Source of the DNA: Synechococcus sp. UW105
GTDB lineage: Bacteria > Cyanobacteriota > Cyanobacteriia > PCC-6307 > Cyanobiaceae
Direction of reading: 5' to 3'
Length of the DNA stretch: 64,000 nucleotides
Assembly: GCF_900473935.1 (NCBI RefSeq)
Contig: NZ_UCNN01000005.1
Coordinates: forward strand, 1-64,000
This document shows, piece by piece, positions 9,301 to 40,636 of the stretch (position 1 is the stretch's first letter; every line of letters starts with the position of its first letter). The notes below the pieces were generated by a model, which searched no databases, had not been told where the DNA came from, and saw only the letters and a list, made by a program, of their open reading frames with translations. Made by a program: the position numbers and the translations under genes.

Positions 9301-12300
9301 GCTCTCCTACTTCAATCGATTGCTGGTGGAGGTGGTCGTGCCGATCAGTATTACGGCAATGTTCAGGTCGGACTCACAGGCCGAAACGGTACGCTCAGTG
9401 CGACCAGCGGCCTGGTTAAGCTTATCAATACTGGCAAGTCTATTTACACAGAAGGCAACAGCTCGCCTGGTATCGCAGCACAGTCAATTGGCGGTGGTGG
9501 TGGTTTCATCGGAGAAAATAGATTCACAGGAACACCACCTAGCTCATGGAAAGGGCATATGGGAAGTGGCGCCTATCAATGGGACAAACAAGGTTCTGTC
9601 GTTCCCGATGTCTATGGAGACATGGACAATGCCGGGAATATTGAGATCACAAACACGGCCTCAATCACTACAAAGGGGGAAATTTCACCCGCCTTGGTTG
9701 CACAATCGATCGGCGGTGGCGGGGGTTATGCCGGCAGCATGAATGCAGCAAAAATCTCACTCGGAGCAAATGGATTCATTTCTAGCGATGCTGGCAATGT
9801 TGTAGTTAACAACAGCGGAGATATCAGCACCACAGGGGCAGGCTCCGGTGGCATCCTTGCCCAATCAATTGCTGGGGGTGGTGGTTTCCTCAGCGCAAGA
9901 ATCATCAGCCAAATGTTCCTGGGCTCTCTTTACACAGCCAGTTCCACCAGTGGGAAAGTTACCGTCACAAACTCCGGAAACATCAGCACAACGGGTCGAG
10001 GCTCCATTGGATTGCTTGCACAAAGCGTGGGTGGCGGTGGCGGTGTCAACGCCTATGCTCAATTAAAGGGGGATTTGCTTACCGATACTGAAGGGAGCTA
10101 TCGCCTGTTCCTCTCTGGTCACAAAGCATTTAACTCAGGTTCAGAAGACATCACCGTTAAAAATACAGGTGATTTCATTACAACCACGGGAAGAGGTGCT
10201 CCAGCTCTCTTGATCCAAAGTGTTGGTGGTGGCGGTGGCTGGACGGACCTCCAATCTGCAAGCAACAGCAACTTACGCCTGGGCAGCCAAGATGGCTCTG
10301 TTGGCTTTGGTGGCAACATCGACGTCAACAACACAGCCAATCTCTCCACCACAGGAAATTATTCGCAAGCCATCCGCGTGCAAACCGTAGGCGGTGGTGG
10401 TGGTGCCGTGAGCGCCAAAGCAAATTCGGTACGGATGGGCGCCAAAGACATGGCTGGCAACAGTAGTGGTGGCGTCATCACATTCAGCAATAGCGGCAAC
10501 ATCTCAACAACGGGTGATGGCTCCACAGGCATCAACATCATGAGCTTGGGAGGAGGTGGTGGAACCATTTTCGGGACATCGACCGCCCTGGCAAACATGG
10601 GAATGAGCGCACAAAATCTCACCGTTGACGCCAGTGGCGGCAACGTCACTGTTGAAAATACTGGTAGCTTTATTACCACCTCAGGTGAAGCGGCAACTGC
10701 TATCACTGCTGTCAGCGGTGGCGGCGGTGGTGGATTCATCGCTGAAATCGGTGGCGATCTGTTGGTTGGTGCCAACACCAAAGGCAACACAACAGCAGGC
10801 AATGTATCTGTCACCAATACAGCCGTACTAAACACGCTTGGTGACGGATCAATTGGTCTTGCAGCTGTCAGCCATGGAGGAGGACAGGCACTCACAGGAC
10901 CGGTAACAAAAGGGGAGAATCTGATATCAGTAGGAAACGTCGGCGGCTCCGATGGATCCGGTGGCGCAGTCACCGTCAACAACACCGGTGTCATCACGAC
11001 AACTGGAGCTGCTGCACCGGCGATTCTTGTGCAATCGGCTGGTGGCGGTGGCATCTATGCACCAGTGGCATCTGATCCAAAGTTCTTCTGGCTTGGCAAT
11101 GCCAGCACGAATACTGAAGGCAATGCCGGCAGCACAATCACCATTAACACCAAGGGAGACATCACCACTAAAGGCATAGGTTCACAAGCATTGATTGCTC
11201 AATCCATCGGTGGTGGTGGTGGCTTCTTAGGAGACATCACGCCTGCCAAAGGCGGATTGAGCGCTGCTCTTCTCGGAAGCCAAGGTCCACAAGGCATCGA
11301 TAAGAAAAAGACAGCTATCGATTGGTACGAAGACTGGGAAAAAATAATCAATGAAGAAGCTGCTGGTGACAGTAACTACTTCAAATCGCTGGGAAAACTG
11401 GACCGAGTCGACGCGATGATCGTCAAAAATAAAACAGTTGGCATAGGTGGAGGCGGCAATGCCAATGCCGTCAATATCACAATCAACGCCGAGCAATACT
11501 ACACACAAGGCGACAATTCGTCCGTAGTTCTTGCACAAAGCATTGGCGATGGTGGAGGGTGGCTCCTACTCGACCAAGGAAACAATTACTCCTTCCTCGG
11601 CTCAATCCAAGCCAATGGTGGAAAAGGTGGCGCCATCACCATTAACAGCAAAGTTAATTTGTTTAGCTTAGGCATCAACTCCCCAGCCCTTGTCGCCCAA
11701 TCGATTGGCGGTGGCGGTGGTGCCACTGGTGACTCTCACAAATTTGCAAGGATCGGAACTCTGCAAGGACGAGGAGACACCAGCGCAGGCGATGTGACAA
11801 TCAAGCAAACCGGCAATGTCAGCACCAAAGGCATCTACTCCAGCGGCCTGCTAGCCCAATCCATCGGCGGTGGCGGTGGGCTCGTCGGCATTGTTTCAGG
11901 CGCTGTCAGCGTTGGATCGATACAGTCCCGCGCCTCGCAGACATCGAGCGCAGGCAAGGTCAATGTCTCCACAGACGGGACGATTCAAACAACAGGCAAC
12001 AACTCCCCTGCCTTAGTGGCGCAGTCCATCGGTGGTGGTGGTGGCTGGATCGGCCAGGCTGACGGCCAAGTTGACATTGGTTCGTTCGGCACACTCGCAA
12101 GCAACAACCAAGGGAATTCGGTTGCAGTCAGCACGAATGGTGCGATTCAAACTTTCGGCAGCAACAGCACAGGAATCCTTGCCCAATCCATCGGTGGCGG
12201 TGGCGGCTTCCTAGGCATCAACACAGCAAATGATTATCGAATGCTCCTAGGCGCCACTAACTCAACAGGCTCAAACAACTCTGCCGATATTTCAGTTGAC

Positions 12301-15300: not shown

Positions 15301-18300
15301 GGCAGCAACGCCGTCAGTCTCGGCGGCTCGGTGATCGGCAACAACGACAGCGCTGCCATCACCTTCACCAACTCCGGAGCCATCACGACTGTCGGCAGCA
15401 ATTCAGCAGCGATCGTCGCCCAATCCATCGCCGGTGGTGGTGGTGCTGTATTTGGCCTCGAAAACGCCACCGCCACATCCATCACGCTCGGTGGCGAAAA
15501 CGCCAGTGAAAACAAGGCCAGCGCCCTGAACCTGACCATCACCGGAAACCTCACCACCACAGGCAATCTCTCCCCTGCTCTGCTCGCCCAGTCCATCGGT
15601 GGTGGTGGTGGCTATGCACCTCTGCCCTCTGCCAACGCCCGCGCCGGTGCCATCAACAGTCTCAACCTTGATGGCAGCAGTGTTGAGCTCAACCTGAGCG
15701 CTGATGTGCTCACGACGGGCTTTGGCAGCGACGGCCTGCTAGTCCAATCCATCGGTGCTGGCGGTGGTGTCGTGGGCTCCTCCACAAGCTTCCTCACCAT
15801 GGGCGCATCGAACCTCGCCAACGGCGATGCAGCTGACGTCACCGTCAACAGCACAGGCACCATCAGCACCACCGGTGCACAATCCATCGGCATCTTTGCC
15901 CAGTCAATCGGCGCCGGTGGTGGACGCGCTGGCACCGCCGCCGGCAGCGTCACCCTCGGTGCCAACGGCGCCACTGGTGATGCCGGTAACGTCTCCCTCA
16001 ACCTCGCCGCTGACGGCGGTAACGGTTCAATCATCACCACAGGCGCGCAATCACCCGCCTTTGTGCTCCAGTCCGTCGGCGGCGGCGGTGGCCTGGTCTT
16101 CCCAAGCACCGACACCAGCAGCGGCGATCTTCTCCTCGGTGGTGGAACAGAAGGCAGCCAAGGTTCGGGCGGTGTGATCAGCTTCACGGCCGGAGGGAAC
16201 AGCGCCATCACCACCATCGGTGCAGGATCCAGCGGCCTCTCCTATCAATCCATTGGTGGCGGCGGTGGTTACACCGGCAGCACCAGTGCCAATGCCCAAC
16301 TGGGCGGCCGATACCTCGGCACATCCTCCGCTGCTGATCTCAGTCTCAGCAGTCAGATCAATGCCGCCACCAATGGAACCGATGCGGCAGCCTTGATGCT
16401 CCAATCCATTGGCGGCGGTGGCGGCCGCGTTGGCGACGTTGGCGGCAACGCCAACCTCGGCGGTACATCCGGCCTGCTCGGTACTCCGGAAGGCACAGGT
16501 GGTTCCCTCAATCTCACCATCGATTCCAACCTCATCAGCTCTGGTGATCGCGGCGCCGGTGCCATCGTTCAAGCAATCGGCGGTGGTGGTGGTGTCGCTG
16601 GCGCCATCGGCGGCAATGCCATCCTTGGCGGACAAGGCCTTGGCAATCGCAGCGCAGGAGCGCTGACGCTCACGATCAACAACAAGGTGGGCTCCGCTGG
16701 CAGTCATGCCCCTGGCCTGATCGCCCAGACCGTCGGCGGCGGTGGCGGCAGCGTCGACACCGTGGCAGGAAACCTCAGCCTCGGCCGCACCTCTTCGGTC
16801 GCCAACACCGGCAACACATCCGCCGCTGCCATCGAGCTCACGATCAACTCCGGTGCACAGCTGTTCAGCACTGGTAGTACCAGCCCGGCACTGATGGCTC
16901 AGACCATCGGCGGAGGCGGCGGGTTTGCCGCATCCACCACTGGGACCGTGCAGCTGGGCAGCGGCGGCAGCGGCACCCTCAATGCCAATGCAAGCGCAGG
17001 CGGCATCACGTGGAGCAATGCAGCCGGAGGCGTCGTGACGGAAAACACAGCAACGGGCGTGAAGGCCACCGAAGTGCCTGGAATCTCAACCAGCGGCAAT
17101 TTCTCTCCTGCCGTTGTGCTCCAATCCATCGGCGGTGGTGGTGGATACACCACCGGAGGTAGCAGCGTCAGCTTCTCCGCTGCTGACCATGGCGGCAGCT
17201 CCACAACCGCAGGTGACATCAGAGTCACCAATAGTGGTGTGATCACAACCAGCGGTGACAACAGCTTTGGCATGCTGATCCAAAGCATCGGTGGTGGTGG
17301 TGGTGTCGGCGGCTCCTCCTCGGGAGTGGTCAGTCTCAACAACACCAATAAAGACTCCAGCTCTGGCAACATCTGGCTCACCAACACCGGCACCATCCGC
17401 ACTAGCGGCAAAGGCTCCCATGCTGTCGTGGCTCAGAGTCTTGCCGGTGGTGGTGGCTTCGTCTTTGGCGGCGTCAACAAGGCCAGTGCCCATAAAGCCT
17501 TGAGCACCCCAAGCGGGACATCAGGCAACCTCACCTACAACAACTCAGGCACGATCAGCGCCACCGGCGAGAACGCTGTGGCCTTGCTCTTCCAAACAGC
17601 CACAGGCGGCGCCTACCTCTACCAAAACCCTGATGGGACGGTGAGCAACATCACTGAAGGCAGCACCGATACGGTCCAGTACACCGATGAATTCACGTAT
17701 GACGAACGTCAATACTTCGGTGCACGTGCCGGTGAAGTGAAAGTGATCAACACCGGTGTCATCATCTCCAGCGGGGAAGGTGGCATTGGCATCACCAAGA
17801 GCACAAGCGCCATCAGCGGCAACTTGAACGTTGTCAATGAAGCTGGTGCTGTCATTCAAGGTGGCACTGGCAGCGATGCGGCCGCCATCGTGCTGCCCAC
17901 AAACACCGTTGAACGCGTCACCAATTACGGCACCATCATTGGCGGCAGTGATGGCAGTGGTGAAGCCATTCGAGGCCCAGGTGGTCCGGATGAAATCAAA
18001 AACTACGGCGAAATCTCTGGAGACATCATCATTCCAGGGCTCACCAAGAACATCTACAACGCCCCGGATGCACGCCTCGAGTCGAACCTCGTTCTAGCCA
18101 ATGGCAATGTCACCCTTTATCAGCGTGGCGTTGTGAACCCCGGCGGTGAGTACCGCATCGGTGATCTCAAGGTCTACGCCAACTACGGAACCACCCACAC
18201 CTCCCTCTACGAGGCAGACCTCGTTCTCCGCTCCGGCAAAACTGACAACCTCACCACCCACTACCGCGCTGATCTCAACGGCACCGTTGAACTCCTCGCC

Positions 18301-27815: not shown

Positions 27816-28985
27816 TCATACAAATGACAAGTTTGACAACTCAGATATCGCGTCGTCAAGTGGAAAATGATGATTACCGATGAACAAACCATAGTTGTGG
27901 ATATGGTCGGCATTAGGTAATGCTGTTGGAACCTCGGCATGAAAATACTTCATGACATCATTCCTTGTAAAATTTCCAGCAACTATAGGACGACATTCGA
28001 ATCCAAGTAGATTTAGTTTATCTAGCAAGTCCTTTCTTCTAACCGTTGAACCAGGACGGATAGTGAGGCTAAAGCCAAACCAACTACTCTGACCTATTTC
28101 TTTTTGTATTAATAAATCTGGATGACTTTGGAGTTTACGTTGAAACTTAATTCCATTTTCACGACGTTCCAGTACAATCTTTGGAAGCTTTTTCAATTGT
28201 TCCAGACCAATCGCACCAGATAACTCTAGTGGGCGGAGGTTATATCCAGGAAGTATGAATCTGAAAGATTCCATAAAGGGATCCTGATCATTTATTTGGC
28301 ATAATTGATTATGACGGGGTAAATTACGTGTCCATCCATGGGCTCTGAGGCATTTCATTATGTGATATAGCTCCTCATCATCGGTGACGGTAAGTCCACC
28401 CTCCATTGTCGAAATGTGATGGGAGAAGAATGAACTAAATGATCCCATTATACCAAAACTGCCTGCTTTTTGATTCTTATATGTTGCCCCAAGGGATTCG
28501 CAATTATCTTCAATAAGGATGGCTCCAACATTGGAGGCTATTGATTCAATAACCGAAAAATTATTTGGATTTCCTAAAAGATTTACGCACATAATTAAAC
28601 GTGTGTTCTCTGAAACAGCATTTGCTAGTTGGTCAAGATCATAGTTTAATGTTTCCAAATCAATATCAACAAATTTAAGCTTAAGCCCATATTGTAGCAA
28701 TGGGGTGTAGGTAGTACTCCATGAAACAGCAGGTACAATGACTTCATCACCTTGCTTTAGTGGATTCTCGTTTGTAAAAAATAATGCTGCCACCATCAAC
28801 AGATTCGCTGAGGAGCCAGAATTACTCATGACACAATATTTACTACCTATATATTGTGCAAATGACTTTTCAAACTGCTCAACATGATTGCCCATTGTGA
28901 ACATGCGAGAATCAATAACACGCTTCATTGCATTGATCTCATCTGAATCCCAAGTCGAGAGTGCCAAGGGGAATTTGAAGGTCAT
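27816..28985 (-). CDS. colD: ColD-like GDP-4-keto-6-deoxymannose 3-dehydratase
   Basis: The 389-residue protein is a DegT-fold PLP enzyme. SNSGSSANL and LLGNP lie in the cofactor region and EDNCESLGA at 160-168 binds the ring. The usual PLP lysine is replaced: the segment at 185-197 reads SFFSHHISTMEGG, placing His189 at the catalytic position. E. coli ColD has His188 there and removes the C-3 hydroxyl using PMP and glutamate. Length also matches ColD (388 aa). RfbH, which shares the His, is longer and has a C-terminal Fe-S cysteine set that is absent here. The product would be GDP-4-keto-3,6-dideoxymannose. The gene overlaps the upstream epimerase-reductase by ATGA, and Gmd is encoded at the same island's far end. 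Confidence 0.8.
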   Translation of the reverse strand: MTFKFPLALSTWDSDEINAMKRVIDSRMFTMGNHVEQFEKSFAQYIGSKYCVMSNSGSSANLLMVAALFFTNENPLKQGDEVIVPAVSWSTTYTPLLQYGLKLKFVDIDLETLNYDLDQLANAVSENTRLIMCVNLLGNPNNFSVIESIASNVGAILIEDNCESLGATYKNQKAGSFGIMGSFSSFFSHHISTMEGGLTVTDDEELYHIMKCLRAHGWTRNLPRHNQLCQINDQDPFMESFRFILPGYNLRPLELSGAIGLEQLKKLPKIVLERRENGIKFQRKLQSHPDLLIQKEIGQSSWFGFSLTIRPGSTVRRKDLLDKLNLLGFECRPIVAGNFTRNDVMKYFHAEVPTALPNADHIHNYGLFIGNHHFPLDDAISELSNLSFV

Positions 28986-30395: not shown

Positions 30396-31331
30396 CTAAG
30401 GGCAATCGATAGAGATAATATTATCTAATTCATCTAGTAATCCACGACTACAATTGTACAATGTGCCACCCGAGGAGATGTGCAATGATGCAAGATACTC
30501 AAAGTCAGCTTTGATCGAATCACGATCAGCCATGAAGATTGATGCTTCAGTTTTTTTAATTAAAGGAAATTCAGGCAAGTAACGGATAGCTTGATTGATA
30601 AGAATTGTCAAAATATTCCTTGATGAGGTACGCAAAATAGCTTTGGATTTCGAAAATATATTGTCGTGATTGTAATAAGGTCCGCAAGAGCCATAAAGAT
30701 GCACGGAATTGTCGGATAGATCCTTGTAAATATACTCTTTCTGATAGGAAGGAATTTCTACGCCAATAATAGTAATGGGGTTACACCCCATAAGGATTGC
30801 GAGGGCTAATGCATGCAGAGAGACTGTAGCGCCGGTTGAATAGGTGTTTCTGTAGCCATATGTCTTGGAGAGTAATGATTGAAGTGAGTTTTGAATACCA
30901 AGCAAAGCTCGTGCCTTCTCTATAGATTCTAATGATTTATTCCTCGGGCAAGATAATGAATTCTCTAGATGATGGTTATAGTAAATAAGGTTTCCATCAA
31001 AGTAGGAATAAGAAATTAGTAATTTACGAGAAATTGATCTAGGTGCTTGAAAGGCAAACGTCGACAAACCGACAAATACCTTTTTAGGTGAAATAGCCCT
31101 TATTGCAGCAGCGTGTTCAGTCAACCATGGTCGAATCCAATGTGGATTAGCAAATACCCAGTAATCTGTCTTGAAGTAGTTTTGGGCTCTTAAGGGAGTA
31201 TCGCCAACAGAAAATATAACTCCATTAAATGTGCTATATGAATAATTAGCCCACGAAGGTGCGCCTCCAACAATTAAAGCAGGCTCACCAGAATGGGCAC
31301 CGATAAAAGAATCTAATGTTGGATTGTCCAT
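30396..31331 (-). CDS. DUF115/GT42-like protein, possible nonulosonate transferase
   Basis: The 311-residue protein opens with ALIVGGAPSW, a nucleotide-site loop like the GNGPS motif of DUF115 (motility accessory factor) and GT42 sialyltransferase proteins. It has STGATVSLHALALAILMG in the middle, ITIIGVE after it, and LYNCSRGL near the end, all in the order seen in those families. Members transfer sialic-acid-like sugars from CMP donors to glycans or flagellin. The gene lies just downstream of the NeuB/CMP-synthetase genes, which would supply such a donor. The call is by motif and context; no alignment was possible. Confidence 0.5.
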   Translation of the reverse strand: MDNPTLDSFIGAHSGEPALIVGGAPSWANYSYSTFNGVIFSVGDTPLRAQNYFKTDYWVFANPHWIRPWLTEHAAAIRAISPKKVFVGLSTFAFQAPRSISRKLLISYSYFDGNLIYYNHHLENSLSCPRNKSLESIEKARALLGIQNSLQSLLSKTYGYRNTYSTGATVSLHALALAILMGCNPITIIGVEIPSYQKEYIYKDLSDNSVHLYGSCGPYYNHDNIFSKSKAILRTSSRNILTILINQAIRYLPEFPLIKKTEASIFMADRDSIKADFEYLASLHISSGGTLYNCSRGLLDELDNIISIDCP

Positions 31332-31426: not shown

Positions 31427-32257
31427 TTACCAGACACTCCTACCTCCATCCATAATCATATTATGCCCATTCATATAAGACGAGGCATCTGAGCATAAAA
31501 ACTGTATAGCAGATCTATATTCACTATTATGGGCCATGCGACCAAGAGGAATTAGCGAAGATAAACGAGTAACAAACTCTTTGTTTTGATCGGTAAATAC
31601 ACCACCAGGTGATAATGCATTACATCGCACACCTTTATCGGCCCAATAAGTAGCTAGATATCGAGTTAAACCAATTAGTCCTGTCTTAATTACAGAGTAA
31701 GTCACAGGCTTAACGGCTTGCCTTTGCTCCTCTACGTCAGATTGTTGATACAAACGTTGATCAGGAGCTATTATAGATAAATCGGAGGCAATATTTAAAA
31801 TAACTCCATCATCTGGACTTAATGCCATTTGATGACCGAAAATCTGACTACATAGAAAAGATCCAGTTAATCCAACCGCAATTTGTGAATCCCACTGCTC
31901 CCTCGGGAAATACTCAAAACGGGATGTATTTTCAATTAGATCATTTGCTTTTACCTTGGGATCAATAGCAGCATTATTTACAAGTATATTAATAGTCAGG
32001 GTAAGTCCTTCCACTTTTTGCTGGACGGATATAATTGAATCAATAGAGGTCACATCCATTAGAAAAGATAAGATCTTAGCTTGAGGAAATTCGAGTCTTA
32101 GTTTATAGAGTGCTTGATCAAGTGCATTGTGAGAAACATCAGTAAGGATTACACATGCACCACACTCCAGTAAAGCTGCAGCATGCTGCATTCCTAAAAG
32201 ACCAGCAGCTCCAGTAATAAGAGCTGTTTTACCACGCAGATCAAAGGGCTTAAGCAT
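31427..32257 (-). CDS. SDR oxidoreductase, PtmA-like
   Basis: A classical short-chain dehydrogenase of 276 residues. It has ALITGAAGLLG near the N-terminus, NNAAIDPK, a Ser region (LNIASDLS) and a YSVIK active site, and ends in MIMDGGRSVW. PtmA-type SDRs of this sort lie beside legionaminic-acid genes in Campylobacter. I place the start at the ATG at 32257, which leaves 19 bases after the upstream SDR; the longer frame would overlap that gene and add a hydrophobic stretch foreign to the family. Predicted to oxidise or reduce a sugar intermediate in the nonulosonate-type pathway. The substrate is unknown. Confidence 0.8.
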   Translation of the reverse strand: MLKPFDLRGKTALITGAAGLLGMQHAAALLECGACVILTDVSHNALDQALYKLRLEFPQAKILSFLMDVTSIDSIISVQQKVEGLTLTINILVNNAAIDPKVKANDLIENTSRFEYFPREQWDSQIAVGLTGSFLCSQIFGHQMALSPDDGVILNIASDLSIIAPDQRLYQQSDVEEQRQAVKPVTYSVIKTGLIGLTRYLATYWADKGVRCNALSPGGVFTDQNKEFVTRLSSLIPLGRMAHNSEYRSAIQFLCSDASSYMNGHNMIMDGGRSVW

Positions 32258-32276
32258 AGCTTGAATAGGTGAGGGA

Positions 32277-33044
32277 TTAGGACTTAGTTTGCCCACCATC
32301 AATAGTCCAGATAGCGCCAGTAACAAAATCTGCTTTTGGAGAGAGAAGATAATGAACAAGCTGAGCAATATTTTCGGGAGATCCGAATTTATTCAAAGAG
32401 ACTTCTTTTTTTAACATGTCATAAACATGGACTTGATTCTCTTTAAGTTTAGATCTCCAGATAGAACCCTCAAATAGAATGTTTCCAGGTGCTATAGCAT
32501 TAATTCGAACACCCTTTACGCCGAGGGGCCGAGCAATACCACGGACATACGCATTTAATGCGGCCTTTGCTGAGGAGTAAGTTACAGGTGCACCATTAAC
32601 AACTTCTAGCCCACAGATTGAGGAAATACAGACTATAGACCCATTTGATTGGGTTAGAAGAGGAATTGAAGCTTCGACAACATTTGTAGTAGACAGAAAG
32701 TTATTGGCAAATACTCGTTTCCACTCATCAAAACTCTCCTCACCAGGTGGGACCGAGCGACCACTCCCAACATTGCAAACTAGAGAATCAAGACAGCCAA
32801 ATTGCCGCTTAATATGAGTGATTAATCTTTCGGCTTCATTAGGGACAGAAACATCCGCAATATATCCGACAGAGCCTGGGAGAGAACGGACTGCTTGTTG
32901 GAGAGTGGTATTTTGGCGACCATTTAAGACAACATCATAACCCTCTGTATGCAGTTCTTTAGCAATAAAATATCCGATACCTTGGCTCGAACCAGTAACC
33001 AAGGCGACTTTTTTGGGAGTGAGTACATCAGAGGGAGGTGCCAT
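32277..33044 (-). CDS. SDR oxidoreductase, FabG-like fold
   Basis: The 255-residue protein is a classical SDR with LVTGSSQGIG at residues 15-24, CNVGSG, ICISS-type serine strand, the YSSAK catalytic pair and TIDGGQ at the end. It is the second of two adjacent SDRs in the nonulosonate-type operon, 11 bases after the isomerase gene. FabG itself is unlikely because of the setting. A sugar or sugar-phosphate dehydrogenase working with the neighbouring PtmA-like SDR and the class III aminotransferase is the simplest idea, but this is inference. Confidence 0.8.
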   Translation of the reverse strand: MAPPSDVLTPKKVALVTGSSQGIGYFIAKELHTEGYDVVLNGRQNTTLQQAVRSLPGSVGYIADVSVPNEAERLITHIKRQFGCLDSLVCNVGSGRSVPPGEESFDEWKRVFANNFLSTTNVVEASIPLLTQSNGSIVCISSICGLEVVNGAPVTYSSAKAALNAYVRGIARPLGVKGVRINAIAPGNILFEGSIWRSKLKENQVHVYDMLKKEVSLNKFGSPENIAQLVHYLLSPKADFVTGAIWTIDGGQTKS

Positions 33045-33055
33045 AATTATTATAA

Positions 33056-33898
33056 TTAAAAAGCCTTGGAGGATACGAGCAAACTAGAGATTGAATTAAA
33101 ATACTGAGAGATTAAGTTAGCGTGATCACCATCTATTGAACGAGCAGTCTGAAGTATATAATTGCCATGATATTTTATCTTAGCCAACTCTAGAAAAACT
33201 AGATTGAAATCAGCATTCCCGGAGCCTAATGGAACAGTAGTTCCACCCAACAATCTATCCTTTACGTGTACATTCACAACTCGTTTTCCATATGTAGACA
33301 ATTCCTCGACGGGATTATAGCCAAGAGAGGCACTGTTACCGATGTCATAATTGATCCCAAAAGAATGATGAGGGAAGCGACTAATAAAGCGACCTAATTC
33401 TTTAGGAGGGAGATCACTTTCGAATGCAACGCGTAAACCCTGGGCCTTGAAAAAATCTTCATATTTTACCATAAATTCAACAAAAAAATCTTCCTCTTTT
33501 GAGCTATTGATAGCACCATCATCAACTAGGGGTATAATTATTAGTTGAATTCCTAGCTTAGAACAAGCGCGAGCTATTGAAAAAAAATCCTTTATGAGCT
33601 CAGACTGTTCTACCCCTTTAGACTTCCAGAACGGTGCTTGCATAAAGCAATCTCCAGTCAAAGAAGGGATCGCCAGATCATAACATTTTGACAGATAAAG
33701 AATTTCTTGCTGGCCATCGAGTGTCATCAATGGGTTTTGATAGAGATAATCTTGATCTAAAGTCCATTCCATAAGAGAGATGCCAATATCTCTTGAGATG
33801 ATGAATTCATCCCGCCAAGACTTCCAAGGGAATGCTTGTATTTTGCCATCTACAAGATCAGAAAGGCGACCTTGCATAAAACCAATTTCTTTAGCCAT
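33056..33898 (-). CDS. Sugar-phosphate isomerase/epimerase-like TIM barrel
   Basis: The 280-residue protein belongs to the xylose-isomerase-like TIM-barrel superfamily (AP endonuclease 2 fold). It starts IGFMQGRLS, has FESDLPP, INYDIGNSASLG and VNVHVKDRL with the metal-binding Glu/Asp/His pattern, and PLGSGNADF late in the barrel. Members move keto groups or epimerise sugars. Its place between the aminotransferase/VOC genes and two SDRs points to a sugar-remodelling step. The gene ends 11 bases before the next one begins. The exact reaction is not known. Confidence 0.72.
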   Translation of the reverse strand: MAKEIGFMQGRLSDLVDGKIQAFPWKSWRDEFIISRDIGISLMEWTLDQDYLYQNPLMTLDGQQEILYLSKCYDLAIPSLTGDCFMQAPFWKSKGVEQSELIKDFFSIARACSKLGIQLIIIPLVDDGAINSSKEEDFFVEFMVKYEDFFKAQGLRVAFESDLPPKELGRFISRFPHHSFGINYDIGNSASLGYNPVEELSTYGKRVVNVHVKDRLLGGTTVPLGSGNADFNLVFLELAKIKYHGNYILQTARSIDGDHANLISQYFNSISSLLVSSKAF

Positions 33899-33916
33899 GA
33901 TTCAACCTTATTAAAC

Positions 33917-34105
33917 TTATAGAGGTGTACTTGGAATTGCCAAACATAGAAACATGTGGGGGGTGAGATGGTTGTAAGTTAATCTTAAATCATATAGTTT
34001 AATTTTCTGGAGTATCATCTTGTCCTTCACTAAGTGGCTGGGAGACTCAGACTTGGGAAAGTACATTGAAATATACACCTGGAGTAGCCGCACTAACTGT
34101 GTCAT
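33917..34105 (-). CDS. Small hypothetical ORF, 62 aa
   Basis: A 62-codon frame begins at an ATG that overlaps the stop of the VOC gene by ATGA, the same arrangement used by the real genes here. It ends 18 bases before the isomerase gene begins. The predicted protein is basic with no motif I recognise. The gap is otherwise empty. Coupling supports it weakly; it may be chance or a decayed gene. Confidence 0.22.
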   Translation of the reverse strand: MTQLVRLLQVYISMYFPKSESPSHLVKDKMILQKIKLYDLRLTYNHLTPHMFLCLAIPSTPL

Positions 34106-34539
34106 GATTTTAGTAATTCAACAAGTTCAAGGAGCACTCCTTCAGGACCTTGCGCATAAATCACTTTAACAAGTCCATCTGGAGAGTACTGAGGGGGCGC
34201 GGGAAAAATCACTTCTTCCATTCGAAGCTTTGAAACCAAGCTATCTAAATCAGTAACTGTTAAGGCTATGTGTGTCAAACCAATTGAGTAGGGTGTTCCT
34301 TTCCAAAAAGTGGCGTTATCATGAGAATGAAATTTAAGCAATTCGATCTGACCACTGACAGGGGCTGATAATTTGACAGTGGTGACATTCACATTTGATA
34401 AACCCATCATAGAATCAATATGAGTACCAGATTCTGTCATCTGTTTTACAATAGTAAAGCCAAGAATATCGCACCAAAAACGCAATGCTTTGTCGAGATC
34501 GTTAACCACAAGTCCAGTATGTCGAATCGATGTGATCAT
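34102..34539 (-). CDS. VOC-superfamily (glyoxalase-like) protein
   Basis: The 145-residue protein is a single vicinal-oxygen-chelate unit pair. The first half starts with IRHTGLVVNDLDKALRFW and the second with LTHIALTVTDLDSLVSKL; the metal ligands would be the first His, a Glu in QIELLKF, the second His and Glu near LLELVE. Such enzymes epimerise, isomerise or cleave small metabolites by enolate chemistry. It is translationally coupled (ATGA) to the aminotransferase upstream. An epimerase or isomerase acting on a keto-sugar is plausible. The substrate is unknown. Confidence 0.75.
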   Translation of the reverse strand: MITSIRHTGLVVNDLDKALRFWCDILGFTIVKQMTESGTHIDSMMGLSNVNVTTVKLSAPVSGQIELLKFHSHDNATFWKGTPYSIGLTHIALTVTDLDSLVSKLRMEEVIFPAPPQYSPDGLVKVIYAQGPEGVLLELVELLKS

Positions 34540-35912
34540 TTTGATGCCTCCTCAGCAATAGCATCTGCGAGTACATCAATTCCTTCCAGTAAAGCATCAT
34601 CCTGAATAATAAGAGGTGGGCCTAACTTGATAGACTCACGGCCAGTATGTACAACAAGCAAACCCTTTTGCATACAACGCTCAGCGACTCGGCTTGTAAA
34701 TGTACTATCAGCAGCACCAGTATCAGGGGAACGAAACAAAATGGCTGCGATTAAGCCCTTACCCAGCACTTCCGAGATGCGGTCGGGAAAACGGCGTTGG
34801 AGAGATCGTAAACCCTGAAAAAGCAGATTCCCCTTACGCTCCGCCTCATTCACTAAATCACGAGCCTCAAGCTCCTCTATAACAGCTAAACCAGCAGCAC
34901 ATACAAGTGGGTTAGCCGAGTGTGTACTACTCATATTTCCTATATCGGGTAAATCCATGACATCAGCGCGTCCAATCACCCCAGACAAAGGTACTCCTCC
35001 TCCCATTCCTTTTCCTGTGCAAATCAAATCTGGCATAACATCATAATGTTGGTAACCAAAGTTTTTGCCTGTACGTCCAAATCCAGATTGCATCTCATCG
35101 AAGGTCAATAGAATATTATATTTTTTACATATAGCTTCTATAGCTTTAACAAAATCATGAGGATAAAATACAGCACCCCAGCCTTGAAAGGTTTCAAGCA
35201 TAAAACCAGATATGTCCTTGCTTATATCGATTCCTTGATCGAGAAGATGAGACAGTCCTCTCTGTAAGAACTCTTCCCCACAACCTTCATCCACAAGCCA
35301 TGGATAAGGAAATGGGATATGATGTATATTTTGATCCTGATAGCCGATCCAATCACGCTGTTTGAAGTTACTACTCATCATCTGAGCACCAAGAGTTCGC
35401 CCATGCCAATTATTTTCTATACAAATTATCCCCTTTCGGCGCTTGTTGGAGCGCTGTCCATGCATGCGCATGAGTTTTAGTGCTGCCTCTGTCGCTTCAG
35501 TTCCTGCAGACAGCAAAAATGCTTTCTCAAAGGGTGTACCAGCAAATGAAACTAACTTTTCAAGATAAGCTGCTCGAATAGGATTGCAATAAGCATAACA
35601 GCTATATAGAGGTTGATCTAAAGAAGATTTAATGGCAGCAGAGACTCGCTCATTGGAATGACCAACGTTAGCTACAAAAATTGTTGAGGTGAAATCAATC
35701 CAACGATTGCCTGCAATATCTTCAACAAAAGAGTCTTTAGCCTTGGCCCAAACAATAGGGAGTTGGCCATGCATTGAACGAGATTCCACTTGATTTAAGC
35801 GCTCGAGAAGTTCAACAGTTCCAGGAGCTGGTATAGCTGTTTTAATAAGACGATAATCTGTATGAACAGTAGGGACTACTACAGGATTGACGGAGAAAAC
35901 ATGATCTGACAT
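34536..35912 (-). CDS. Class III PLP aminotransferase
   Basis: The 458-residue protein is a full-length fold-type I class III aminotransferase. It shows LSAGTEATEAALKL in the phosphate-binding region, NNWHGRT, TFDEMQSGFGRTG and the PLP lysine in CTGKGMGGG. Relatives act on ornithine, GABA or glutamate semialdehyde. Some, such as NeoB/BtrB in aminoglycoside pathways, aminate a sugar at a terminal aldehyde carbon. In this operon an SDR-generated terminal aldehyde would be a suitable substrate (inference). Start is the ATG at 35912, two bases after the CMP-synthetase stop; a TTG at 35918 would add two residues. Confidence 0.85.
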   Translation of the reverse strand: MSDHVFSVNPVVVPTVHTDYRLIKTAIPAPGTVELLERLNQVESRSMHGQLPIVWAKAKDSFVEDIAGNRWIDFTSTIFVANVGHSNERVSAAIKSSLDQPLYSCYAYCNPIRAAYLEKLVSFAGTPFEKAFLLSAGTEATEAALKLMRMHGQRSNKRRKGIICIENNWHGRTLGAQMMSSNFKQRDWIGYQDQNIHHIPFPYPWLVDEGCGEEFLQRGLSHLLDQGIDISKDISGFMLETFQGWGAVFYPHDFVKAIEAICKKYNILLTFDEMQSGFGRTGKNFGYQHYDVMPDLICTGKGMGGGVPLSGVIGRADVMDLPDIGNMSSTHSANPLVCAAGLAVIEELEARDLVNEAERKGNLLFQGLRSLQRRFPDRISEVLGKGLIAAILFRSPDTGAADSTFTSRVAERCMQKGLLVVHTGRESIKLGPPLIIQDDALLEGIDVLADAIAEEASK

Positions 35913-35914
35913 TC

Positions 35915-36646
35915 TCAATCCGGCCCAAATATAGATGACGATATACTAGGGTCTATTTCGATCAGTTGCTCAAGGCCGACAAAATCACTTTCTGTATCGA
36001 TCTCAGGAGCTGGCGGGGTGAGAAAAGGTAGGACATAGTCTCCATGAATTATTTTATTGCGCAGGATAAAGCTCACAGATAACACATCGACATAGCCATT
36101 TGCAGAATAAGTATCGGGGAACACTTGTCGAGCATTATTTGCCATATCTAATTGTGTACTTTCGCTAAAAAGCCTCTTTAATCTTCCGTCCGAAGATAAT
36201 TCAAACGTTTTATAGGCAGACTCAGACATTAAATGAACTGAACGAAGGGCAGTTGCTTGCTCTGATTCAATAAAAGCTTCTATTGCGTCATCAACTACGC
36301 GGGGATTACGAAAAGGTGTGGTTGGTCTTATATGAACGATGTATTCAGGCAATGTATTATTGGCGTCAAGCCATTCAAGGGCGTGCTTTATGAATTCATA
36401 ATCTGTAGAAGTATCACCCGATATACTTGCAGGCCTAATAAATGGAACTTCTGCGCCTAAACCTATTGATAATGAAGCATACTCTGGAGAATCAGTAGAA
36501 ACGATTGTCCTTTCAATTAGACGACTCTTTAGAGATGCTGCTATTGACCATTCGAGCAAGGAACGGCCCCCGAGAAGCCTAACATTTTTATTTGGTACAC
36601 CCTTAGATCCAGACCTTGCTGGTATTAAAGCTATTATTTTTACCAT
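35915..36646 (-). CDS. CMP-nonulosonate synthetase, NeuA/LegF/PseF-like
   Basis: The 243-residue protein begins IALIPARSGSKGVPNKN, the CTP-binding signature of CMP-acylneuraminate synthetases. It contains IVSTDSPEYA, HIRPTTPFR and an NGYVDV-type acidic metal site. It activates a 3-deoxy-2-keto acid sugar with CMP for a transferase. Size matches bacterial NeuA/LegF. It follows the NeuB-like gene after six bases and precedes the aminotransferase. Which acid it uses is not evident; KdsB is unlikely because the motif set is NeuA-like. Confidence 0.87.
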   Translation of the reverse strand: MVKIIALIPARSGSKGVPNKNVRLLGGRSLLEWSIAASLKSRLIERTIVSTDSPEYASLSIGLGAEVPFIRPASISGDTSTDYEFIKHALEWLDANNTLPEYIVHIRPTTPFRNPRVVDDAIEAFIESEQATALRSVHLMSESAYKTFELSSDGRLKRLFSESTQLDMANNARQVFPDTYSANGYVDVLSVSFILRNKIIHGDYVLPFLTPPAPEIDTESDFVGLEQLIEIDPSISSSIFGPD

Positions 36647-36652
36647 AGATCA

Positions 36653-37501
36653 TTAATGATTTGCTTCTAGCTCAAGGTGACCTCGAAGTTTTGCTGCTAT
36701 AGGAACCTCAGCATCAATAACTCGTTTCTTACCATCTCCCATCGCTTTCTCAATCTTGCGGACTGCACCGACCAATTGGGTAAGACCAGAAGGCTCAATA
36801 GATGCAGATTGATCACTGCCATACATTGCACGATCTAGCGTAATATGTCTTTCAAGTGAAGTTATTCCCATGGCTGATGCCGCGTACGAGACTGCCAACC
36901 CAACTTCATGACCACTGTAACCTACATTACACTGATATCGCTCTCTCAAAGTATGTATCATGCGAAGATTGGCATCTTCATCCCGCATTGGATATGTAGA
37001 AACTGTATGCATTAGTTCAAAGGGGCAATTAGCGGCTCGAAAAATATCAACCGCATTTTGAATATCGTCATAGGTACTCATGCCAGTAGAAATAAAGGTA
37101 TGTTTTTTTTCGTCTGCAACAAGCTTTAGGAGATCATCATAGACGAGCATTGCAGAGGCAATTTTATTGTACTTACAATTAAAATATCTTAAAAACTTTT
37201 GACTTTCTAGGTCCCATGCTGATGCAAACCAGTCAATATTTTGATCTTTACAGTGTTGAGATATTGCTTGAAAATTATCCTTGTCAAATTCTAGTGCTTG
37301 TTTTTGATCCCTTTGAGTATTTCCCCAAGGACTCACTCTTGGTTGACTCAAAAACTCCTCACCGTAGACTAGATTAATATCACGCTTTTGGAACTTAACT
37401 GCATCACAACCTGCTGCTGCTGCTACGCTCACTAATTCCTTTGCAATATCAAGATCACCGTTATGGTTGATCCCTACTTCAGCAATGATCGTGATACCCA
37501 T
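36653..37501 (-). CDS. NeuB-family nonulosonic acid synthase lacking the SAF domain
   Basis: The 282-residue TIM-barrel synthase retains the catalytic pattern: IIAEVGINHNGD with Glu8, DAVKFQKRD, NKIASAML, STGMSTYD, HTVSTYPMRDEDANL, GYSGHEVG and ERHITLDR with metal-binding His. It should condense PEP with an aldose to a 3-deoxy-2-keto acid. Canonical NeuB, LegI and PseI are about 340-350 residues with a C-terminal SAF (antifreeze-like) domain that closes over the partner subunit's active site. This protein ends after the barrel, and nothing in frame follows. The aldose substrate is therefore likely not plain ManNAc. It is the core of the nonulosonate module. Confidence 0.85.
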   Translation of the reverse strand: MGITIIAEVGINHNGDLDIAKELVSVAAAAGCDAVKFQKRDINLVYGEEFLSQPRVSPWGNTQRDQKQALEFDKDNFQAISQHCKDQNIDWFASAWDLESQKFLRYFNCKYNKIASAMLVYDDLLKLVADEKKHTFISTGMSTYDDIQNAVDIFRAANCPFELMHTVSTYPMRDEDANLRMIHTLRERYQCNVGYSGHEVGLAVSYAASAMGITSLERHITLDRAMYGSDQSASIEPSGLTQLVGAVRKIEKAMGDGKKRVIDAEVPIAAKLRGHLELEANH

Positions 37502-37548
37502 GCATTCAAATTGGTTTACTTAATTTAAACCGATGACACGCCCAGATG

Positions 37549-38088
37549 TCAAGACAGCGCGCAAACCTCATCGACACTGAGATCACTAAGTTTTATTAAT
37601 TTTTCAACAAAACTCCTGACAAAGCCGTTTCCACCATTCTTATCTATCGCTAAATCACAATACTGAAGGATCAGTGGATGTGCATCCTGGGGAGCAACAG
37701 AGAAGATTCCTTCTTTCAACATAATTGAGAGGTCATTTAGATCATTGCCAAGATAGATAGTGCCCAAGGGAGTCTTCGAGTGATTTATTAAATAGCTGCA
37801 GACGAAATCAAACTTATTGCTCTCAGATTGAAAACATTTAAGGTTTAGTTTTTGGCACCTTTTCTGCACGACGGGATTTGATTCCTTCGATAAAACAAAA
37901 CAGTCAGGGATCCAATTGTTAATGACTGAAAAACGCCGTAGAATATCGAATGCTAACCCGTCAGATCGATCACACGCTACTGATTCAACACCGGTTTGAT
38001 CTAGGTAAACTTTATTGTCGGTGAATACCCCGTCGAAGTCGAAAATTATGGTATGCACAATTTCCCAATGCGGTAACGAATTATTCAT
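37549..38088 (-). CDS. KdsC-like HAD phosphatase
   Basis: The 179-residue protein has the HAD nucleophile motif FDFDGVFTD (Asp17, Asp19), a capless C0 fold like KdsC, a Lys in LSKESN and YLGNDLNDL as the metal motif. KdsC cleaves Kdo 8-phosphate; a Bacteroides relative cleaves KDN 9-phosphate next to a NeuB-type synthase. A phosphatase here implies that the NeuB-like step uses a phosphorylated aldose. A second, more typical KdsC is encoded at 63007-63570, so this copy probably serves the nonulosonate route. It overlaps gmhA by 8 bases. Confidence 0.82.
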   Translation of the reverse strand: MNNSLPHWEIVHTIIFDFDGVFTDNKVYLDQTGVESVACDRSDGLAFDILRRFSVINNWIPDCFVLSKESNPVVQKRCQKLNLKCFQSESNKFDFVCSYLINHSKTPLGTIYLGNDLNDLSIMLKEGIFSVAPQDAHPLILQYCDLAIDKNGGNGFVRSFVEKLIKLSDLSVDEVCALS

Positions 38089-38668
38089 GAGAGACTAGGC
38101 CTAGATTTTTTTCTATCATATCGCATAGGATATGCGCCAATAAAATGTGTGTCTCCTGGACTCTTGCTGTTGAATAACTTGGAACAACTATTGAGTAATC
38201 AGCAATTGGTTTACAGACACCCCCATCTTTGCCAAGAAATGCCAGAGAAGATACTCCCATAGACTTAGCCTGTTGTATAGCAGCTACTACATTGGAACTA
38301 TTTCCAGAAGTGGAAATTGCAAATAAAACATCTCCTTGTCGCGCAAGAGCCTCTACTTGACGCGAGAAAATATCCTCATAAGAAAAATCGTTAGAAATGC
38401 AAGTGATGGATGAGATATCTGATGCTAGGGATACTGCTCTTAATGGTTGTCTATTAATAGAAAATCTTCCCAGAAGTTCAGCCGCTATATGCTGACTGTC
38501 GGACGCACTACCACCATTTCCACATACAAATATCGTACCGCCTTTTTCAAGTGAGCTGACTAAAACGGATGAGAACTGTAAGAGAGGTTCCAGAGATAGA
38601 TCAAGAGTGGATTTGATGACAGAAATATGCTCACAGAAATGAGCTTCGACAGCATGAGCACTGGTCAT
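38081..38668 (-). CDS. gmhA: Phosphoheptose isomerase GmhA
   Basis: The 195-residue SIS-domain protein has CGNGGSASDSQHIAAEL, with the zinc/active-site His following, FAISTSGNSSNV, and ARVQETHILLAHILC at the end: the full GmhA pattern. It converts sedoheptulose 7-phosphate to a manno-heptose 7-phosphate. It is the first gene of the nonulosonate-type operon, overlapping the phosphatase gene. No HldE, GmhB or heptosyltransferase is visible in the window, so the heptose phosphate could feed a nearby enzyme rather than the usual ADP-heptose route. Confidence 0.88.
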   Translation of the reverse strand: MTSAHAVEAHFCEHISVIKSTLDLSLEPLLQFSSVLVSSLEKGGTIFVCGNGGSASDSQHIAAELLGRFSINRQPLRAVSLASDISSITCISNDFSYEDIFSRQVEALARQGDVLFAISTSGNSSNVVAAIQQAKSMGVSSLAFLGKDGGVCKPIADYSIVVPSYSTARVQETHILLAHILCDMIEKNLGLVSHE

Positions 38669-38839: not shown

Positions 38840-40636
38840 TTAAGTCTGAAGGACTTTTGAGGGTGGGCCTTCATCAGTTATTTTACCTTCTTCAAGGTGA
38901 ATAAGGCGATCACAATTCTCTACTGTGGTTAGGCGATGGGCAATCATAATTATTGTCATTTGCTCCTTAAGCTTACTCAAAGATTCAATAAGGAGCCTCT
39001 CAGTTCTATTGTCTAGTGCGCTTGTAGCCTCATCAAAAATTAGAATACTAGCCTGTTTATATAGCGCCCTAGCTATACCTATGCGCTGACGCTGCCCTCC
39101 ACTTAATCGTATACCCTGTTCACCAACTACAGTATCGTAACCATACTCACAGCTCTCGATAAAACTTGATATCTGGGCTTGTTCGGCTGCCTTACGTACG
39201 CGCTCTAAGTTGACAAGGTGTTTAGGTACACCAAAAGCAATATTCTCTGCAATGGAGCTATCGACAAGATAAATTGACTGTGGTACATGGGCTATGGAAG
39301 CTCTCCAATCATAGAGAAGTTGAGGACAAGCAGAATCATAGAGATCAACACCATCTACCAAAATTGAACCAGAGGTGGGCTTAAGCAATCCCATTATAAG
39401 GTCCAGGGTTGTCGACTTTCCTGAACCAGTACTACCTATAAATCCAATACTTTCTCCAGATTTAATTTCTAAATTGAGATCATGGAGTATATAATTTTGA
39501 TTAGGGTGATAGCGGAAGTCTACATTCCTGAATATCAACTTATTTTGAAGCTGTATAGTGTTTGCTTTAGCTGCACGGAGTGGCAAAGGCAGAGAGAGCA
39601 TTTCAAGCACAGTTGCCATTGCTGCAGAGCAGGATTTTAAAACTGCCCACCCACTATAAATCTGTTGCAAAGCCGGAAGCAGGCGTTGAGCTCCTAAAGC
39701 AAGCGAGCCTAAAAGTGGTATGACAGATGCTCCACTTCCCCTTTGGAGAACAAGGAGGAAACCAAGGATTGCAATTGAAACCATGCATAAAGCCTCAAAT
39801 GCATAACGAGGAAAGGAGGCTATAAAAACATTTTTGGCTTGAAACTGCCTACGAGGACGATCAGCATATCCATAAGATTTCAAATATGCATCTTGAGTGC
39901 CATCCAAAAGAACGTCTCTAATCGCACCCAAGCCTTCTTGAAGAGCTTTTAGTTGCTTAGCAGATGTCTCTTCAATTTTATGACCATTACTCCTTAATTC
40001 TCGACGTGCCACAAAGGCTAAAACCATATAAGCACAACCAAAAACAATCGTAGTTGCGAGAGCAACTTGAGCATCAATTAGCAATAGGCCAACTATAAGA
40101 GCAGTGGCAATTATAGATGCTGTTATTAGTTGAAGAGAAGCATTTAGAGCTGAGACAGCCAGATCCACTTGGGTAGATATACTAGTGATCACTTCACTAC
40201 TGTTTCGCCGTATGTGGACTTCGTAGGGCTGATAAAGAGTTTTTTTATAAGCATCATGGCCTAAATCTGACCCAACCGCTGCAACCAGTCGACCATTGAG
40301 CCAAACATTTAGAAGTCTGATGCATCCTGCGAATACAGCAGTAGAGGCAAAAATAAGGGTTGCAAATAAAAGTAATTGATTGGGTCTGGTTAGGCCAATT
40401 AAACTTACCAAGTCCTGGACATCAGCACGTTGCAAAAGGACATCCGGCTCACTAAGCAAGGCCAAAAAGGGCAGCACTGCGCCTAAGGACAGTAACTCTG
40501 CAGCAGCACTTACAATCATTACGATTGAAAGCATTGCAAATTGAATACGTCGACGACGGCTGAGATGGTGCCAAATAGATGCCAACAAGCCAAGGGTTGA
40601 TTCTGAGCGCTCTAGGTGTTGCATAGATTCTCTCAT
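38840..40636 (-). CDS. ABC exporter, MsbA/PglK-like lipid-linked glycan flippase candidate
   Basis: The 598-residue half-transporter fuses a membrane domain of about six segments (residues 30-330) to an ATPase domain. Walker A is GSTGSGKST, the signature LSGGQRQR, Walker B ILIFDEATSALD, and the switch His lies in IMIAHRL. PglK and MsbA of this architecture flip lipid-linked oligosaccharides or lipid A. No Wzx-type flippase is seen in the window, so this may translocate the island's repeat unit. Gaps of 171 and 265 bases separate it from its neighbours. The substrate is inferred from the setting. Confidence 0.85.
   Translation of the reverse strand: MRESMQHLERSESTLGLLASIWHHLSRRRRIQFAMLSIVMIVSAAAELLSLGAVLPFLALLSEPDVLLQRADVQDLVSLIGLTRPNQLLLFATLIFASTAVFAGCIRLLNVWLNGRLVAAVGSDLGHDAYKKTLYQPYEVHIRRNSSEVITSISTQVDLAVSALNASLQLITASIIATALIVGLLLIDAQVALATTIVFGCAYMVLAFVARRELRSNGHKIEETSAKQLKALQEGLGAIRDVLLDGTQDAYLKSYGYADRPRRQFQAKNVFIASFPRYAFEALCMVSIAILGFLLVLQRGSGASVIPLLGSLALGAQRLLPALQQIYSGWAVLKSCSAAMATVLEMLSLPLPLRAAKANTIQLQNKLIFRNVDFRYHPNQNYILHDLNLEIKSGESIGFIGSTGSGKSTTLDLIMGLLKPTSGSILVDGVDLYDSACPQLLYDWRASIAHVPQSIYLVDSSIAENIAFGVPKHLVNLERVRKAAEQAQISSFIESCEYGYDTVVGEQGIRLSGGQRQRIGIARALYKQASILIFDEATSALDNRTERLLIESLSKLKEQMTIIMIAHRLTTVENCDRLIHLEEGKITDEGPPSKVLQT

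Follow-up and report, generated by a model that had tools for sequence, protein, structure and literature searches.

Among the described systems closest to the genes considered here is the pathway to KDN (2-keto-3-deoxynononic acid) of Bacteroides thetaiotaomicron and Prymnesium parvum; according to passages of PMC6200933, mannose 6-phosphate (Man-6-P) is the sugar used in Prymnesium, and the B. thetaiotaomicron Man-6-P route is cited there. A phosphorylated route like that of animals was put forward in 2012 for a Leptospira NeuB that carries a fused C-terminal domain (PMC3438082); the main text of that paper calls the domain endonuclease-homologous, interprets it as a phosphatase, takes Neu5Ac (N-acetylneuraminic acid) to be the product, and makes no mention of an isomerase or a glyoxalase. 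Clusters for legionaminic (Leg), pseudaminic (Pse) and neuraminic (Neu) acids are the subject of sections of PMC4481668 and PMC7371886. Here we describe a set of nine minus-strand open reading frames at 31427-38668 of a 64,000-nt stretch of DNA (the window) from Synechococcus sp. UW105, whose genome is cyanobacterial (2.66 Mb, 99.9% complete, 13 phycobilisome-family matches). Of 14 control genomes scanned for this family, Synechococcus elongatus alone gives matches. Judging from sequence, we consider it fairly likely that this cassette makes a cytidine monophosphate (CMP)-activated 3-deoxy-2-ulosonic acid for a surface glycan by a phosphorylated, animal- or KDN-like route.

The reading frames, with domains assigned by Pfam and NCBIfam, are listed here in the order of transcription, together with the gap between two of them and the gene that follows:

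38081..38668, minus strand: GmhA-type sugar-phosphate isomerase (SIS_2; TIGR00441, 205.1 bits, cut-off 209.45)
37549..38088, minus strand: KdsC-like HAD phosphatase (NCBIfam matches only; no Pfam match at E ≤ 0.001)
36653..37501, minus strand: NeuB-type synthase without SAF domain (PF03102, 231 bits)
35915..36646, minus strand: PseF-like CMP-acid-sugar synthetase (PF02348; best NCBIfam match TIGR03584, PseF)
34536..35918, minus strand: class III pyridoxal-phosphate aminotransferase, AT3 (PF00202, 302.5 bits)
34102..34539, minus strand: VOC-fold metalloenzyme, possible epimerase/isomerase (from conserved residues and predicted fold)
33899..34101, minus strand: gap of 203 bases between the VOC and TIM-barrel genes (a methyltransferase gene stands at the matching place in locus L116)
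33056..33898, minus strand: putative PF01261 TIM-barrel sugar epimerase/isomerase (from conserved residues and predicted fold)
32277..33044, minus strand: SDR (short-chain dehydrogenase/reductase) oxidoreductase 1, SDR1 (PF13561/PF00106)
31427..32257, minus strand: SDR oxidoreductase 2, SDR2 (PF13561/PF00106; ATG start at 32257 proposed)
30396..31331, minus strand: MptE-like protein, possible transferase, unsure member of the operon (PF01973, 28.3 bits, below the cut-off of 34.6)

From GmhA onwards up to SDR1, the intergenic gaps taken from the coordinates are -8, 47, 6, -4, -4, 203 and 11 bases. The mechanically called SDR2 frame has a TTG start, runs to 32368 and overlaps SDR1; started at the ATG at 32257, it leaves a gap of 19 bases. 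Since most neighbours overlap or lie fewer than 50 bases apart, the nine genes probably form one transcription unit, in which the VOC-TIM interval is the only wide gap and no long open frame is left in it (33899-34101). The MptE-like gene lies 95 bases downstream of SDR2 on the same strand. An earlier note made from the window's letters had described a nine-gene operon with these domains, and the frames, the domains and the tight spacing all bear this description out.

In the scheme that we propose, GmhA would convert a ketose phosphate to an aldose phosphate, which the SAF-less NeuB would join with phosphoenolpyruvate to give a ulosonate phosphate; the KdsC-like HAD would remove the phosphate, and the PseF-like enzyme would turn the ulosonate into CMP-ulosonate. 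The TIM barrel and the two SDRs could oxidise, epimerise and re-reduce a hydroxyl, and AT3 and the VOC protein could replace a carbonyl stereoselectively by an amine. We infer the substrates, the order of the steps and the position of the amine; the product is probably an amino-decorated acidic surface sugar built from a phosphorylated sugar.

The synthase belongs to a large and widespread family. At least 583 stretches of the genome collection encode relatives of the window NeuB (SAF was checked for part of them), as do 202 stretches of viral contigs, and a phage collection holds two records with a window-type NeuB at E ≤ 1e-30, both unannotated. We examined the best 80 of the genome stretches, which are hence those nearest to the window, and 80 viral loci, which include near-copies and reduce to 67 after collapse at 97% NeuB identity. 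As controls, 39 SAF-type regions were taken from 50 hand-picked genomes, the source of 50 of the 80 genome loci, after exclusion of SAF-type genes closer than about 20 kb to a SAF-less NeuB; three of these regions (L200, L201 and L212) were found to be SAF-less and were dropped, leaving 36 from 24 genomes.

The window NeuB has 282 residues; its PF03102 match stops at residue 259, and it has no SAF match. With the distance to the end of the open frame as a length proxy for SAF, in place of a domain scan, each of the 160 loci has a frame that stops no more than 21 residues after the NeuB match, whereas in the 36 controls the frame runs on for at least 53 residues. When 161 SAF-less rows (80 genome, 80 viral and the window) were compared with 35 SAF-type rows (L213 left out), K36, Q38, K113, H198, H219 and D230 were common to both, and K39, R40, R55, W59, G60, K67, W91, W96, E199 and R218 marked the SAF-less rows. 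A FastTree analysis of 110 rows, a quick method that here yields some long branches, separates the 97 SAF-less rows from the others by a branch whose local support is 96. The window NeuB lacks SAF, sits on this branch and carries K39, R40, R55, W59, K67, W96 and R218. The extra basic residues are candidate phosphate ligands, and the solved structure nearest by sequence is 6ncs, a 290-residue chain. The human synthase NANS presumably resembles this clade, a likeness that we do not use as evidence. Two annotated records with clade NeuBs are labelled as N-acetylneuraminate synthase family proteins. The earlier note had called the pathway a candidate undescribed one; in view of these numbers and of the phosphorylated route proposed in 2012 (in the main text of PMC3438082), it is no one-off, and what is novel is a property of a widespread NeuB family, not of the window genome alone.

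To place the operon among known pathways, each defining family model was compared with its cut-off. The operon NeuB scores 242.9 bits against the N-acetylneuraminate model TIGR03569 (cut-off 399.65) and 176.8 bits against the PseI model (cut-off 340.25), and the CMP-synthetase reaches 117.6 bits with the PseF model TIGR03584 (cut-off 205.7). The HAD protein stays below the cut-offs of the KDN-9-phosphatase model NF058599 (73.4 bits, cut-off 180) and of two KdsC models, NF007019 (65.8 bits, cut-off 208) and TIGR01670 (59.9 bits, cut-off 106.95). In the whole genome, the hydrolysing 2-epimerase NeuC/LegG (TIGR03568) gives a best score of 86.3 bits (cut-off 235.9), PseG (TIGR03590) and GmhB have no match, and the HldE kinase (rfaE domain I) has only weak matches, with a best score of 33.4 bits (cut-off 345). 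By these models, every known nonulosonate, KDO (3-deoxy-D-manno-octulosonic acid) and heptose route fails at least one defining test. The claim that the typical Leg and Pse enzymes are missing thus holds genome-wide for NeuC, which stays below its cut-off, and for PseG; acetyltransferases were not searched genome-wide. DegT aminotransferases are missing, as claimed, from the operon, but one lies in the window at 27816-28985.

A KDO-like eight-carbon acid, for which a GmhA-like isomerase would supply arabinose 5-phosphate and NeuB would replace KdsA, appears very improbable. The HAD does resemble KdsC, and KdsC-like phosphatases serve KDO. However, the operon isomerase is GmhA-like, not KpsF-like, and the window contains another pair of KpsF/KdsD and YrbI/KdsC type at 62021-63570, both over their subfamily cut-offs, which makes it unlikely that the operon isomerase and phosphatase are the KDO pair.

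The evidence for GmhA as a pathway partner comes from its neighbourhood and from its own genome. Neighbourhoods were taken as 9 kb around NeuB, with some cut by contig ends and with E-value limits of our own setting; the mean stretch examined was 14.6 kb for SAF-less loci and 14.2 kb for controls. GmhA lies near NeuB at 45 of the 80 genome loci versus 2 of the 36 controls; in these 45 the gap to NeuB is below 1 kb in 35, the strand is the same in 40, and the median gap is 11 bases. The window genome has no other TIGR00441 match at E ≤ 0.001, and as GmhB finds no match there and HldE stays below cut-off, its GmhA is, on these models, an orphan. The best Protein Data Bank (PDB) matches of the operon GmhA are phosphoheptose isomerases, and G50-S54, D57, H60, E64, T120, S124, Q171 and H179 are invariant in 24 cluster GmhAs; the operon HAD has PDB matches to KdsC entries and to 3e81/3e8m. 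In 50 genomes with a clade NeuB, GmhB is lacking or present as trace matches only in 13 of the 25 that have a cluster GmhA, versus 4 of the 25 that do not (Fisher p = 0.016). Among 60 relatives of the window genome, itself included, a close NeuB relative occurs in two (100% and 54% identity), the remaining NeuB matches at E ≤ 1e-40 having 38% identity or less. Both of these genomes have GmhA, as do 2 of the other 58 at E ≤ 1e-40 and 3 at E ≤ 1e-20; the association has p = 0.003 at the E ≤ 1e-40 line, which was drawn after the scores were viewed. The abstract of PMC4515613 describes cyanobacterial lipopolysaccharide (LPS) without heptose and KDO; heptose-free LPS fits an orphan GmhA with another use, and the KDO part is odd beside the KdsD/KdsC-type pair. 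The enrichment, the short gaps and the orphan status of the isomerase support what the earlier note had envisaged, namely that a CMP-activated acid sugar is made by way of phosphorylated intermediates and that GmhA takes part.

Which sugar GmhA would supply bears on the length of the product. The known product of GmhA is a manno-configured heptose 7-phosphate, and D-glycero-D-manno-heptose 7-phosphate is the homologue of Man-6-P that is one carbon longer and has the manno configuration accepted by NeuB enzymes. If NeuB recognises the manno end of its substrate, it could thus take a heptose phosphate, which makes a ten-carbon acid a live option: GmhA would give D-glycero-D-manno-heptose 7-phosphate, and NeuB and phosphoenolpyruvate would extend it to a 3-deoxy-dec-2-ulosonic acid. 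We put this forward tentatively; a search of open-licence papers turned up no description of a ten-carbon ulosonic acid, nor was a survey of nonulosonic acids or KDN in cyanobacteria met with there.

About equally likely, and just as doubtful taken singly, is a KDN-like nine-carbon acid, in which NeuB would use Man-6-P to make KDN 9-phosphate, GmhA would be a mannose-phosphate isomerase variant or an accessory, and the extra genes would lead to an amino-KDN. The HAD scores slightly higher with the KDN-9-phosphatase model (73.4) than with KdsC (65.8), although both lie far below cut-off, and Prymnesium has an established Man-6-P route, with another cited for B. thetaiotaomicron (passages of PMC6200933). 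For comparison, the KDN-9-phosphatase model was searched in 288 genomes of another phylum, giving three matches at E ≤ 1e-45 and none over the cut-off of 180. In the one of these regions with a NeuB (L227), the near-KDN-9-phosphatase (162.6 bits) lies two genes from a NeuB of 295 residues that is also SAF-less and shares K39, R40, G60, W96, G197 and R218 with the clade, with Arg for K67, His for R55, Tyr for W59 and W91, and His for E199. However, a route from Man-6-P does not require GmhA, and the 12.3 kb of L227 contain none, whereas around the clade NeuBs GmhA counts among the neighbours with the strongest enrichment, keeps the invariant residues of its family and has phosphoheptose isomerases as its nearest solved structures.

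The other operon families also gather around SAF-less NeuBs. At genome loci versus controls, HAD is found near NeuB in 22/80 versus 0/36, the TIM barrel in 35/80 versus 0/36, SDR1 in 18/80 versus 0/36, SDR2 in 32/80 versus 2/36, AT3 in 13/80 versus 0/36 and VOC in 12/80 versus 0/36; for these six and GmhA, uncorrected Fisher p values range from 1e-7 to 0.017. DegT shows the reverse (16/80 versus 16/36). The 80 viral loci hold GmhA 5, HAD 2, CMP-synthetase 32, AT3 16, VOC 23, TIM 11, SDR1 0 and SDR2 11 times; after the 97% collapse AT3 is left at 12, VOC at 18, TIM at 10 and GmhA at 5. MptE-like genes adjoin NeuB at 10 of 80 viral loci but at none of the 80 genome loci or the 36 controls. Fusions join the CMP-synthetase-like protein to HAD in six loci, HAD to GmhA in L157 and VOC to TIM in L155; NeuB-TIM fusions, expected from the main text of the Leptospira paper (PMC3438082), were absent from the loci examined.

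These nine window genes were fixed beforehand, whereas the methyltransferase, ThDP (thiamine diphosphate) enzyme, class IV aminotransferase and LIC12162 queries were picked after the SAF-less neighbourhoods had been viewed, so their enrichment is biased. The class IV aminotransferase (PF01063) occurs near NeuB at 17 of 80 genome loci (for instance L146:11941-12921) and 0 of 36 controls, and 2 of the 17 also carry class III. A ThDP enzyme is found at 15 of 80 SAF-less loci (L129, L130, L132, L133, L134, L138, L139, L141, L142, L148, L151, L158, L159, L165 and L171), of which 11 are from Lachnospiraceae or related Clostridia and 12 have GmhA. Two candidates were rejected: the LIC12162 transferase (TIGR04331) as a dedicated transferase (5/80 versus 1/36, p = 0.66), and transketolase as a partner, whose two halves turned up at 1 and 2 of the 80 loci in genomes, at 0 and 1 of the 80 in viral contigs and at none of the 36 controls.

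The nine-gene set can be split into modules that also occur independently of one another. AT3 and VOC co-occur at 11 of 13 genome and 16 of 16 viral AT3 loci (12 of 12 viral after the 97% collapse), CMP-synthetase, AT3 and VOC stand side by side at 25 of the 160 loci when near-copies are counted, and TIM and SDR2 are together in 28 of the 35 genome loci with TIM. On the NeuB tree, the 13 AT3 carriers among 80 rows require 12 changes, so that either the modules or NeuB itself have been exchanged. Such mobility would also suit two unrelated functions, a NeuB/CMP pathway and a separate AT3/VOC/TIM/SDR pathway for an amino-acid or acyl substituent on the glycan. We regard this division as unlikely: AT3, VOC, TIM and SDR1 occur at 0 of 36 SAF-type loci, which indicates that those genes follow the SAF-less NeuB clade.

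In our scheme, the predicted chemistry of the modules is that of amination and epimerisation. The nearest solved structures to AT3 by sequence are gamma-aminobutyrate (GABA) and acetylornithine aminotransferases, a likeness that points towards amination at a terminal carbonyl without proving it. In the VOC protein H7, E66, H90 and E138 are invariant in 28 of 28 sequences, a two-His two-Glu set that we take to be a metal site, and the AlphaFold2 model (pLDDT, predicted local distance difference test, 91.1) matches glyoxalase folds. In the TIM barrel E160, D185 and H211 are invariant in 37 sequences; its AlphaFold2 model (pLDDT 96.5) has UlaE as best fold match, with a template modelling (TM) score of 0.83. 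The same fold is seen in YcjR, a 3-keto-D-glucoside 4-epimerase (PDB 6wn6; TM 0.69, rank 29) with 15% identity to the window protein, and YcjR works with dehydrogenase partners. Together with the two SDRs, the likeness to UlaE and YcjR suggests oxidation, epimerisation beside the ketone and reduction. A link between the TIM barrel and PtmF of the Leg route was considered and abandoned, since PMC4481668 gives PtmF as an oxidoreductase. The C-terminal domain of the Leptospira NeuB may, by its description, be the PF01261 TIM barrel of the cassette.

A gene-order search, which the earlier note had called for, finds the parts recurring together in many bacteria and viral contigs. At the limits used, no other examined locus has all eight partner families within 9 kb, and L103, L116 and L162 have seven. 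In L116, from a Magnetococcales contig, the order HAD, NeuB, CMP-synthetase, AT3, VOC, methyltransferase, TIM, SDR1, SDR2 is that of the window; the methyltransferase between VOC and TIM is of class I, one extra gene lies between HAD and NeuB, and a LIC12162-family transferase follows SDR2. The L116 HAD starts at base 110 of the stretch examined, so any GmhA before it would fall outside. Four viral contigs (L021, L035, L036 and L053, of which L035 and L036 look like copies) carry NeuB, CMP-synthetase, AT3, VOC, TIM and SDR2 in window order, and an MptE-like gene over the Pfam cut-off precedes NeuB in the three of them that were scanned. L035 also has PhoH and a PD-(D/E)XK exonuclease alongside the cassette, as expected of a phage contig. 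A direct scan of viral contigs for class III aminotransferases returned nothing, the viral AT3 relatives having been reached via NeuB. The same genes in viral contigs and in cells suggest that phages use or remodel a host surface sugar.

Several observations weigh against a phosphorylated, GmhA-fed route to a CMP-activated product. GmhA and HAD are rare at viral loci (5 and 2 of 80), 58 of the 80 genome loci show no HAD inside the 9-kb range, which many of their contigs do not fill, the operon HAD is far below both phosphatase cut-offs, and just one of the three near-KDN-9-phosphatase regions has a NeuB. No GmhA was found at E ≤ 1e-20 in 7 of the 50 clade-NeuB genomes (six metagenome-assembled genomes and one single-cell genome), so GmhA may not be obligatory and other substrate sources may exist. 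The CMP-synthetase is not significantly enriched (47/80 versus 16/36, p = 0.16) and is present at 1 of the 15 ThDP loci; some clade members may therefore not be CMP-activated, and activation may differ at those loci. Finally, the TIM barrel has Gln, also the consensus of the 37 sequences, at the position aligned with a Glu of two solved relatives other than YcjR. We presume that this Glu is catalytic, and with Gln in its place the TIM barrel may not be an epimerase.

The window holds further surface-polysaccharide-type genes. Near the operon are FnlA-like, RfbH-like and GDP-fucose-synthase-like genes and export and chain-length proteins; of five NCBIfam names there (MsbA/PglK, FnlA, wecB, RfbH and GDP-fucose synthase), wecB alone is over its cut-off.

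38840-40636: MsbA/PglK-like ABC exporter (NCBIfam, below cut-off)
in the window: wecB, non-hydrolysing (230.7 bits, cut-off 210.15)
27816-28985: DegT aminotransferase outside the operon (best score RfbH, below cut-off)
62021-63007: KpsF/KdsD-type isomerase (over subfamily cut-off)
63007-63570: YrbI/KdsC-type phosphatase (over subfamily cut-off)

A plus-strand open frame at 214-19716 encodes 6500 residues, highly repetitive and glycine-rich, by its look a giant surface or secreted protein. Elsewhere in the genome a second NeuB (L002, G000:C15:102567-103292) lies within a 521-residue protein whose long N-terminal part has no Pfam match, and by eye another CMP-synthetase-like gene adjoins it. Two plasmids carry related NeuBs. 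In Azospirillum thermophilum (L237) a clade NeuB and a HAD with an extra N-terminal part adjoin an annotated legionaminic cluster in back-to-back orientation, and TIM-barrel and SDR genes lie 5-7 kb further on; in Methylomagnum ishizawai (L238) a related NeuB (47% identity) and a HAD lie with a transketolase split in two and with another class III aminotransferase, which is 25% identical to the window AT3.

Taken together, the earlier interpretation is supported as to a phosphorylated CMP-acid-sugar route with GmhA, and the system is no one-off, the clade being widespread. The operon is real, its parts are conserved and widespread, and it represents a variant of a nonulosonate-type route with a credible chance of a new carbon backbone. 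If clade NeuBs act on GmhA-derived sugar phosphates, N-acetylneuraminate synthase labels are misleading, and an entire class of acid surface sugars lacks an assignment; a ten-carbon product, if true, would define a class of CMP-activated, aminated surface sugars that various bacterial groups share and phages carry. With GmhA and NeuB paired, assays of just these two enzymes could address the substrate question directly.

Compared with known systems, the operon shares NeuB and a PseF-like CMP-synthetase with the Leg and Pse pathways but has an aminotransferase of class III, not DegT, in a genome without NeuC above cut-off and without PseG. In the Aeromonas group I flagellar glycosylation islands, a class III aminotransferase gene adjoins pseF in IA-IE of the seven subgroups; the main text of PMC7874193 makes no mention of GmhA, glyoxalase or TIM barrel, the aminotransferases are likened by class only, and pse genes are present there, unlike in the operon. 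The second NeuB locus of Leptospira (YP_002102-YP_002104, in the main text of PMC3438082) likewise combines NeuB, an extra aminotransferase and a CMP-synthetase. With the KDN pathway the operon shares the NeuB-type synthase, SAF-less also in the KDN-like locus L227, the KdsC-like HAD, the CMP-synthetase and, presumptively, a phosphorylated intermediate, and to these it adds GmhA, AT3, VOC, the TIM barrel and the SDRs.

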